64,000 bases of DNA, from contig CM040746.1 of NCBI GenBank assembly GCA_022829145.1, forward strand, positions 19,671,832 through 19,735,831, written 5' to 3'. The translations under genes were made by a program, and so were the position numbers. The stretch is from Albula goreensis (lineage: Eukaryota > Chordata > Actinopteri > Albuliformes > Albulidae). Positions 732-24,178 of the stretch are shown here, piece by piece. The notes under the pieces are model-generated. The model was not told the DNA's origin, ran no database searches, and was given only the letters and a program-made list of their open reading frames with translations. Numbering within the stretch: position 1 is the stretch's first letter; the number at the start of each line of letters is the position of its first letter.

Positions 732-3700
732 CTACAAAATTATAGATTTAAGAAGAAAAGATCAAGTTCTTAAAAAGCCATTTCAATAGCAAAACTTGGC
801 TTAATAAAACTTAATTATTCAAAACATATTAAATTACCTGTGCATGCTTTCATGTGTTCCCAATCTAAAATACAGATTTAAATGTCACCAAAATGTTTTT
901 TTTTTTTCTGTGAATCAACAGTTACTTAACAAAGTGCTTATGTACACTGAATTTAATTCCAGTTACATATTAAAAACTGTACAGATAAGTTTGTCATCAA
1001 CTATTTCCATAAATCCTTTTTTCTTGTACAGTAATTTAATTCAGTTAGGAATATTGATGCTTCCATTTTGATTAATACTAGTTTCATATTTGAATTGTTT
1101 CTCTTACCTACTGTAAGAACGTAATCCAAACCATCTGAGAATGACAAAAACAGAACATGCTACATTATTACGGTGTAATGGTCATAACTGTAATGTGAAT
1201 GTCAGTATGTGCAGTGTAAAACCTTACCTAATTCCTGACGTAAGAGATTACATCCTGGGAAGGGAAATTTTTCAGAAAAAATATTTTACAGAAGCACAAT
1301 GTTTTATAGATATCACTGCATAATTTTGCTGATGTTATTATTCATTAAATCAACCTCTTCTCAGTATAAACTTTCCACATGGAGTAATGTACTAAATTAT
1401 AGAAACACGTATTTCATTAATATGGAAACCACATGAAAGATTTTTATCTTCAATTATTTGTCTTACTTTCGCAGTCTTCTCCTGGATATGTTCTTGGAGT
1501 GAGGGAACTTTGTTGCAGCCTATCAGTTTCATCTACAGGATGAGGTCCTGAAAAAGCAATGCAAACATTCTGGTCACAGGCACTTCAAAAGATATTCATA
1601 GGTGTTTTGGCACTGACAATTTTAGTGGTTTTTTAAAGAACTAAAGAGTTCCAAACTGCTCTGAGGCACAACTGCACAGAATACTTTTTGGCTTACTTTC
1701 CGACAGCATCAACAAGAAAAACAGGTAGCCAGCTGCTAATGATAATTAATATATACTCATGAACTTCCTTCCTGATTGGGGAGACACATTAAAACTGTAT
1801 CTTTTGCTAAACAGTGACTAAACAGTTTAGTTACCATAACTCTGGAGCCTGGAGACTACAGCAATAACAATGTTGCAAAATTTCCAATCTGTGTTTGATA
1901 CATCATGCTGGTGTTGCTGGGCATATTTTTCACACCAATAAAATAAAAGTAAACTGAATATATTAGGTATTATGTAAAGTAATATACAGTATATACATAC
2001 ACATTTTTGTTTTGTGAAATAGAAGTATTACTTTGAGTTTAAAAAAATGTAACCAATAGTGTTATTCTGCTACAGAATTTCCATGTGTTTCACATGTCAG
2101 ATACATACTCCTCTGAATGTGACTTATTTATTGAATATGAAGAGTAATCCATTACATTTCTCAAAATCTTTTGCTTTATTTAGTCAGACAATGTTAAATA
2201 TGCAACTTACTTTCTTTTAGAACTGCATTCTCCTCTGATAGGGCTTTGTTGTCTGAAAGAGCGATAAAAATACGATTTGTGAATAATGGGGTAATGCCAG
2301 ATGCATGAAGGCAGCAACACAGGAGAACGATGCATGATGGCAGCAACACAGGAGCACGATACATGATGGCAGCAACACAGGACCAAGATGCATGATGGCA
2401 GCAACACAGGAGCACGATGCATGATGGCAGCAACACAGGAGCACGATGCATGATGGCAGCAACACAGGAGCACGATGCATGATGGCAGCGACACAGGAGC
2501 ATGATGCATGATGGCAGCGACACAGGAGCACGATGCATGATGGCAGCAACACAGGAGCACGATGCATGATGGCAGCGACACAGGAGCATGATGCATGATG
2601 GCAGCAACACAGGACCAAGATGCATGATGGGAGCAACACAGGAGCACGATGCATGATGGCAGCGACACAGGAGCATGATGCATGATGGCAGCAACACAGG
2701 ACCAAGATGCATGATGGCAGCAACACAGGAGCACGATGCATGATGGCAGCAACACAGGAGAACGATGCATGATGGCAGCAACACAGGACCAAGATGCATG
2801 ATGGCAGCAACACAGGAGCACGATACATGATGGCAGCAACACAGGAGCACGATACATGATGGCAGCAACACAGGAGCACGATGCATGATGGCAGCAACAC
2901 AGGAGAACGATGCATGATGGCAGCAACACAGGAGCATGATGCATGATGGCAGCAACACAGGACCAAGATGCATGATGGCAGCAACACAGGAGCACGATGC
3001 ATGATGGCAGCAACACAGGAGCACGATACATGATGGCAGCAACACAGGAGCACGATATATGATGGCAGCAACACAGGACCAAGATGCATGATGGCAGCAA
3101 CACAGGAGCACGATACATGATGGCAGCAACACAGGAGCACGCATTATTCTTGGGTTGTGATTTGGCCACATTTGAACAGTTAGTCAGAAAAAGATGCATT
3201 TCCAAAAAAAGTACTAAGGTAAAAGTAAACAGCACCTGAAGAAGCTGTGTTAGAGAATTTAATTTTTCTTTATTGAATGATGTTTTTTCCCACATTTTTG
3301 TTTAACCAGTAAAGGAACATCTTAAAATGTAATTCACATTTAATATTCAACTTACCTTGTTTTAAACTGCCATTCTCCTGATTCATTTTCCCTTCAGAAG
3401 GACACACATTACAGTGAATAAACCAAATTCAAGCTGAGGTGAGTCTAAACAGTTATTGACATATCAGTGGTCACTGGGTAATTGGGTTTTTAAGTTAGTC
3501 CAAATGGAACAGTAAAACCAGTTTCAGAATTAAATTCATTTTATATGAATTCCTCTATCCTAAATTCTGAGGAAATGTTAGGTCTTACCAAGATCCTCTG
3601 AAAAGGTTTCATTTTCTGAAAGAAAAAAATGTTTTGTGAAGTATGGATTACTGCAAGGTAGAACAATGCCAGCAATATGGGAAACGTCATTGATTTATGA

Positions 3701-24178: not shown

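Follow-up and report, generated by a model that had tools for sequence, protein, structure and literature searches.

A butyrophilin-family receptor gene of the bonefish Albula goreensis with an array of 38 juxtamembrane microexons and a predicted coiled-coil tail

A receptor gene of the bonefish Albula goreensis (Elopomorpha) raises the question of what dozens of very short exons between a transmembrane exon and a B30.2 exon may represent: a long tail of the protein, a tail mostly skipped in splicing, or the remains of one in a decaying copy. The gene, here called gene A, lies on the minus strand of the window, the 64,000-nucleotide stretch of contig CM040746.1 analysed here.

Layout of gene A and its microexon array

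The exons of gene A follow in the order signal peptide, one IgV, transmembrane (TM), microexons, linker and B30.2, which is the butyrophilin-family (BTN) receptor layout that had been proposed, including the family trait of a single TM segment followed by short symmetric juxtamembrane exons. Motif scans revealed no IgC-type second Ig domain in the 154 bases between the IgV and TM exons, and the family scan that scores SPRY at 61.6 bits gave no PRY match in the B30.2 exon. When the intact copies are joined, one frame stays open from the TM exon through 33 microexons and the linker into B30.2. The features, in window coordinates and in the direction of transcription, are the following.

24106..24177, minus: signal-peptide exon, coding part (MENVLVCELLLCLIIVTLQCSMSQ)
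23495..23799, minus: IgV exon, 305 nt; V-set, 50.2 bits over 23496-23771
23200..23340, minus: connecting-peptide and transmembrane exon
23000..23026, minus: 27-nt microexon, dead, donor AT
22786..22812, minus: 36-type microexon shortened to 27 nt, in frame
22470..22511, minus: 42-nt microexon
21972..22013, minus: 42-nt microexon
21141..21167, minus: 27-nt microexon
20880..20915, minus: 36-nt microexon
20337..20378, minus: 42-nt microexon, dead, with a stop and no donor
19850..19891, minus: 42-nt microexon
19036..19062, minus: 27-nt microexon
18794..18829, minus: 36-nt microexon
18527..18553, minus: 27-nt microexon
18269..18304, minus: 36-nt microexon
17921..17947, minus: 27-nt microexon
17722..17756, minus: 36-type microexon of 35 nt, counted dead; AG acceptor, GTAAGT donor
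17339..17380, minus: 42-nt microexon
16695..16721, minus: 27-nt microexon
16463..16498, minus: 36-nt microexon
14722..14748, minus: 27-nt microexon
13116..13151, minus: 36-nt microexon
12587..12613, minus: 27-nt microexon
12345..12380, minus: 36-nt microexon
11363..11389, minus: 27-nt microexon
11127..11162, minus: 36-nt microexon
10864..10890, minus: 27-nt microexon
10620..10655, minus: 36-nt microexon
10267..10293, minus: 27-nt microexon
10061..10096, minus: 36-nt microexon
9776..9817, minus: 42-nt microexon, dead, with a stop
9576..9587, minus: 36-type microexon cut to 12 nt, in frame; absent from the deposited protein
8047..8073, minus: 27-nt microexon
7801..7836, minus: 36-nt microexon
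6832..6873, minus: 42-nt microexon, dead, acceptor GG
6268..6294, minus: 27-nt microexon
6035..6070, minus: 36-nt microexon
4684..4725, minus: 42-nt microexon
3589..3615, minus: 27-nt microexon
3356..3391, minus: 36-nt microexon
2211..2252, minus: 42-nt microexon
1467..1547, minus: 81-nt linker exon (PHPVDETDRLQQSSLTPRTYPGEDCE)
1228..1254, minus: 27-nt exon, present too in all three upstream paralogs
1108..1134, minus: 27-nt exon
838..864, minus: 27-nt exon (DWEHMKACT)
235..731, minus: B30.2/SPRY exon including the stop codon; SPRY 61.6 bits, cut-off 26.3

The series was recovered in full by position weight matrices trained on the exons of a first pass, in which both strands were scanned for short exons flanked by an acceptor and a donor and exons of 27, 36 and 42 nt were in excess on the minus strand. 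Between TM and B30.2 stand 38 copies, 33 intact and 5 dead, the same count in independent scans as in the original prediction; the intact copies, all phase 1-1, join to the very total given there, 1,074 nt or 358 residues. The array as first described runs to 2211; between it and B30.2 lie three more 27-nt exons (1228, 1108, 838) and the 81-nt exon. Intact copies make up 13 of 14 in the 27-nt class and 6 of 9 in the 42-nt class. In the 36-nt class 12 of 15 are full-length, two are cut but in frame (to 27 and to 12 nt), and the remaining copy, at 35 nt, is out of frame. All 33 intact microexons have GT donors and AG acceptors, the donor being GTAAGT, GTAAGA or GTAAGC in 25 of them, and the gap between one live exon and the next is 170 to 1,714 bases long, with a median of 391.

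Such an array could in principle be a chance or low-complexity product of repeat expansion that codes for nothing, and there are indeed 29-bp minisatellites in introns by the 27-36-42 modules, at 2300-3141 (29 copies) and 4773-5826 (36 copies), as well as intron segments repeated elsewhere in the region. This reading is hardly credible: leave-one-out scoring, in which no copy contributes to the matrix applied to it, puts the 31 full-length intact copies at 40.6-78.8 bits, whereas 20 shuffles of the window per class peak at 8.8, 10.2 and 7.3 (9.1, 7.4 and 7.0 in another run). When the copies themselves trained the matrices the same 31 reached 46.9-82.1 bits, against a peak of 14.5 in a single shuffle of the 204 kb examined. 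Detection is also strand-specific: per 10 kb, a generic detector gives 10 and 10 matches on the strand that carries gene A, compared with 1 and 0 on the opposite strand and 0-1 for every one of 12 control strands. With phase, length classes and heptad periodicity in agreement, a chance origin of the array is rejected on the shuffle comparisons and the strand specificity. At other SPRY loci, four 10-kb stretches among the matches listed held 0, 0, 0 and 2 array-like matches, and eight loci of 3.3 kb gave no microexon match above 20 bits. The 932-Mb genome as a whole has at least 150 SPRY matches, 150 of 449 candidates having been scored, many of them on contigs C3 and C17, that is, a large B30.2 repertoire.

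Exon arithmetic and the predicted coil

The array alternates between 27-nt exons (consensus xNKALSxxL) and, on their 3' side, 36-nt exons (GKITxENxDLKA); 42-nt exons (xNKALSEENAALKE) are interspersed. The microexons had been called heptad-coding, which holds for the 27+36 pair (63 nt, 21 residues, three heptads) and for the 42-nt exon (two heptads) and fails for each exon singly; a rule of one exon to one heptad is ruled out by the lengths of 27, 36 and 42 nt. The heptad register runs unbroken across 30 of 32 junctions, a continuity that largely follows from the exon lengths, since the register was assigned from the exon-class consensus; of the two breaks, one adjoins the dead 35-nt exon and the other falls at the 12-nt remnant. 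Dead copies amount to 3 of 9 in the 42-nt class and 2 of 29 among the others (p = 0.075 for a selective loss of register-neutral exons).

With the two shortened exons left out of the counts, hydrophobic residues fill core position d in 45 of 49 cases (92%), Asn occupies core position a in 29 of 50 (58%), and positions e and g are polar or charged in 92% and 90%. Position b is Gly in 13 of 49, and these glycines together with the asparagines at a would weaken the coil. Heptad periodicity supports the original prediction: the joined exons have a hydrophobic period of 3.53, and power in the 3.3-3.75 band reaches 21.6 for ILMFVYW, compared with a maximum of 12.0 in 2,000 shuffles (13.6 against a shuffle maximum of 11.4 when Ala is added).

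Asn at a combined with Leu at d favours parallel two-stranded coils, and the helix rise in a coil is 0.1485 nm per residue. The gene A tail is thus predicted to form a rod of about 53 nm (358 residues x 0.1485 nm), close to the 50 nm or so proposed before. The single helix of that proposal fares less well, and was dropped given the Leu-d/Asn-a core, which makes a dimer likelier and suggests a parallel two-stranded coil.

The 42-nt exon looks like a fused 27+36 pair minus one heptad, its 5' side being equal to the 27-nt consensus (37 of 37 positions, one undetermined base of that consensus set to match) and its 3' side resembling the 36-nt one (30 of 34). Further out the match is poor, at 2 of 16 positions and, after three undetermined bases were filled in, 10 of 28.

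Array growth, constraint and the state of the gene A copy

The original prediction had overlooked the neighbouring paralogs with arrays of their own, as well as the IgV frameshift and the good splice sites of the 35-nt microexon. Three plus-strand SPRY exons lie upstream, at -49647, -32789 and -7371 relative to the window, and are 96.4-99.4% identical in protein to the SPRY exon of gene A, which is open. Paralog D is an inverted, partly matching duplicate, to which blocks of window 1-11,795 are 89-98% identical; its 21 intact microexons give 266 residues, exactly 38 heptads, with a period of 3.50, and it too has dead copies (for instance at -15188, -13670 and -11450). Tandem duplication is the way in which such arrays grow, because identical 42-nt copies are regularly spaced both in paralog C, where four with the unusual donor GTCAGC stand 169 bases apart (-34333 to -33785), and in D, at steps of about 1.2-1.4 kb. 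Gene A modules 2,211-3,615 and 4,684-6,294 both match one stretch of D and both carry the 29-bp minisatellite, which likewise matches a single stretch of D.

Signal-peptide, IgV and TM exons of the gene A type occur only in gene A within the 204 kb, other Ig matches there being 25-32% identical. Within that range paralogs C and D yielded no IgV like that of gene A, and no head was found upstream of D by tblastn with the gene A head, motif scans or reading-frame lists. Paralog B' has a TM-like exon at -55672, and upstream of C an open stretch (-39010 to -38645) resembles, by eye, a butyrophilin C-type Ig domain. Elsewhere in the window, at 35700-43350 on the plus strand, lies another receptor-like gene, with an IgV exon followed by one exon built of repeated acidic units (EFVEEDPAVSSPKEET) and by similar 36-nt acidic AEEDDESVTVDA-like exons near 40.68, 41.20 and 42.09 kb, the repeats having been recognised by eye.

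Between copies of the gene A microexons, exon identity exceeds that of introns outside the splice signals (0.70 vs 0.50-0.60 for 27 nt, 0.67 vs 0.50-0.64 for 36 nt and 0.79 vs 0.46-0.71 for 42 nt), while the splice-signal stretches are conserved as much as the exons or more (0.67-0.86). Omega between copies is 0.65 for the 27-nt, 0.67 for the 36-nt and 1.63 for the 42-nt class (six copies). Nine A-D exon pairs, comprising eight array exons and one beside B30.2, show 3 synonymous and 7 nonsynonymous changes and give 0.62; for D's 42-nt exon, whose partner in A is ambiguous, 2211 was used. For SPRY, dN/dS is 0.09-0.37 over six paralog pairs, each with 1-6 synonymous and 1-7 nonsynonymous differences. 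Full-length intact copies number 31 of 38, where neutral decay at 55-75% pairwise identity would leave 19-45%, and the p-values of that model are overstated because a star phylogeny takes the copies as independent. Core positions are less variable than non-core ones (p = 0.058). Taken together, these comparisons make long-term constraint likely; on the microexons themselves it is modest.

The state of the gene A copy is a separate matter. The IgV frame that starts from the signal peptide breaks at a G-run (23768-23771) and meets a stop at 23762-23764, which may reflect either decay of gene A or an error in the assembly; the exon is otherwise open for 92 residues with a good V-set match. The 35-nt exon likewise breaks the frame if it is joined to its neighbour's standard donor. 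A deposited A. goreensis protein, AGOR_G00072680, is 96% identical to the predicted spliced tail over the whole query and contains 32 of the 33 microexons in order, the 12-nt exon being omitted. Around the 35-nt exon (17921-17947 and 17722-17756) it restores the frame through a donor 19 bases further on. The protein lacks the sequence from the frameshift point to residue THLSRT, and with it most of the IgV domain; in our reading, the gene model splices this stretch out to escape the stop. In the B30.2 exons of gene B (27840-28345) and its upstream duplicate E (-65215 to -64690), which are 97.6% identical over 499 aligned bases, there are three one-base gaps, one of them G5 against G4 and every one frame-breaking. 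This points either to frequent small-indel errors in the assembly of the region or to the decay of several receptors.

Gene A could also, though this is rather doubtful, be a relic or recent pseudogene, whose head was lost by the frameshift and in which dead microexons are accumulating, the array having once coded a coiled-coil tail. The broken IgV frame, the 35-nt exon, the dead (5) and truncated (2) copies among the 38 microexons, the frameshifted B30.2 of B and E and the failure to find a gene-A-like IgV for C and D all fit such decay. The open SPRY exon, nearly identical among four paralogs and with low dN/dS, and the excess of intact microexons over the neutral model speak against it, and the one-base gaps of B and E, being of the same kind as the defect at the IgV G-run, also fit assembly errors. 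This alternative overlaps with the explanation that we prefer, an amplified coiled-coil tail, as it concerns the state of the gene A copy and not the coding nature of the array.

Chicken BG genes, fish relatives and the proposed rod

The array had originally been compared with mammalian butyrophilins alone, a choice that proved too narrow: excerpts of PMC5938342 describe chicken BG genes with up to 37 tail microexons. As outlined in parts of PMC5938342, PMC4046983 and PMC5043582, a BG gene combines a single IgV exon with a TM exon and a tail of tiny phase 1-1 exons, mostly of 21 nt and coding for a heptad coiled coil; the genes of T cells have 27-37 tail exons with up to 38 repeats, and BG1 alleles 13-21, exon copy number being variable. 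Gene A shares with these MHC-linked, disulfide-dimerised members of the butyrophilin family the single Ig domain (an IgV, frameshifted in gene A), the TM segment and the tens of phase 1-1 tail microexons. It differs in that BG exons of 21 nt hold one heptad each, whereas those of gene A keep register through 27+36 pairing; BG tails lack the B30.2 domain that gene A retains; and the tail has 358 residues against about 266 for 38 BG heptads. The one system belongs to birds and the other to an elopomorph fish.

Mammalian BTNs keep B30.2 and have several very short juxtamembrane heptad exons (PMC6790196, in part), and in BTN3A, according to excerpts of PMC10665462, chain pairing is under the control of the juxtamembrane region, which has been modelled as a coiled coil. 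BTN1, BTN2 and BTN3A resemble gene A in having IgV, TM, short juxtamembrane heptad exons and B30.2, but they have IgC beside IgV, PRY-SPRY and only several short exons, whereas gene A shows no match to IgC or PRY. Gene A is thus a combination of a BG-type tail and a BTN-type end with different exon arithmetic. Tiny symmetric exons in arrays, skippable without loss of frame, are also known from the micro-exon genes of Schistosoma, which encode secreted parasite proteins unrelated in sequence to gene A and, to our knowledge, follow no heptad rule.

Among fishes, the sturgeon (Acipenser ruthenus) proteins P0036 and P0037, annotated as TRIM39-like or A33-like and compared at the protein level, share with gene A a period-3.5 coil and B30.2; the coil of P0036 spans about 110 residues and is accompanied by a TM-like stretch. 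Neither has a match to an Ig domain. P0036, which shares 32% identity with P0001 across 324 aligned columns, may be an intermediate. Cross-species protein searches listed 10, 24 and 19 proteins, one search having scored the 7,994 candidates that shared most words; an array-type coil was seen only in the bonefish record among those listed, the sequences of six of which were inspected. Besides TRIM and BTN relatives, the rest comprise two tarpon SPRY proteins, whose coil is short or absent, and the sturgeon proteins with medium coils. No description of a fish gene of this kind was recognised in the literature searched, which covered few subscription journals.

Comparison also brings in the possibility that gene A makes an ordinary short-tailed butyrophilin, with most of the array skipped, few microexons in the mRNA and the rest a by-product of tandem duplication. 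We regard this as unlikely. Skipping symmetric exons leaves the frame intact, mammalian BTNs manage with several very short exons (PMC6790196, in part), and for a tarpon relative (59% identity across 61% of the query) the annotation shows no more than a short coil-like stretch, as judged by eye. Many chicken BG transcripts, too, are read through or alternatively spliced in the tail, as stated in excerpts of PMC5938342. Yet excerpts of PMC4046983 place the predicted tail exons of four chicken BG genes in cDNA, with exceptions through alternative splicing or read-through and one missing exon, and in gene A the consensus-type donors of most intact microexons and the conservation of exons above introns argue in the same direction.

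We therefore favour, with moderate confidence, the reading of gene A as a BTN-family receptor whose juxtamembrane microexons were amplified in place into a coiled-coil rod. Two chains would pair in parallel through their Leu-d/Asn-a cores into a two-stranded rod of the predicted length, which would hold B30.2 far below the membrane and couple it to the IgV head, much as human BTN3A is thought to do with a far shorter juxtamembrane coiled coil. Duplication, loss or skipping of a 27+36 pair or a 42-nt exon would shift the rod length by three or two heptads and, since the exons are symmetric and both units are whole heptads, would keep both frame and coil register. It is intriguing, if distinctly improbable, that these three- and two-heptad bricks form a splice-tunable ruler, by which cells or lineages would set the distance between the IgV head at the membrane and the cytoplasmic B30.2 sensor through gain, loss or skipping of bricks, with the plus-strand neighbours B', C and D (the last with 21 exons) as alternative tail cassettes on a shared upstream TM head.

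If the rod reading is true, a BG-style rod, known from chickens, arose or persisted in an elopomorph fish together with B30.2, and an array of exons can hold a coiled-coil register even when its single exons are not whole heptads. The length of the rod between IgV and B30.2, as a selected variable in butyrophilins, would thereby become testable.
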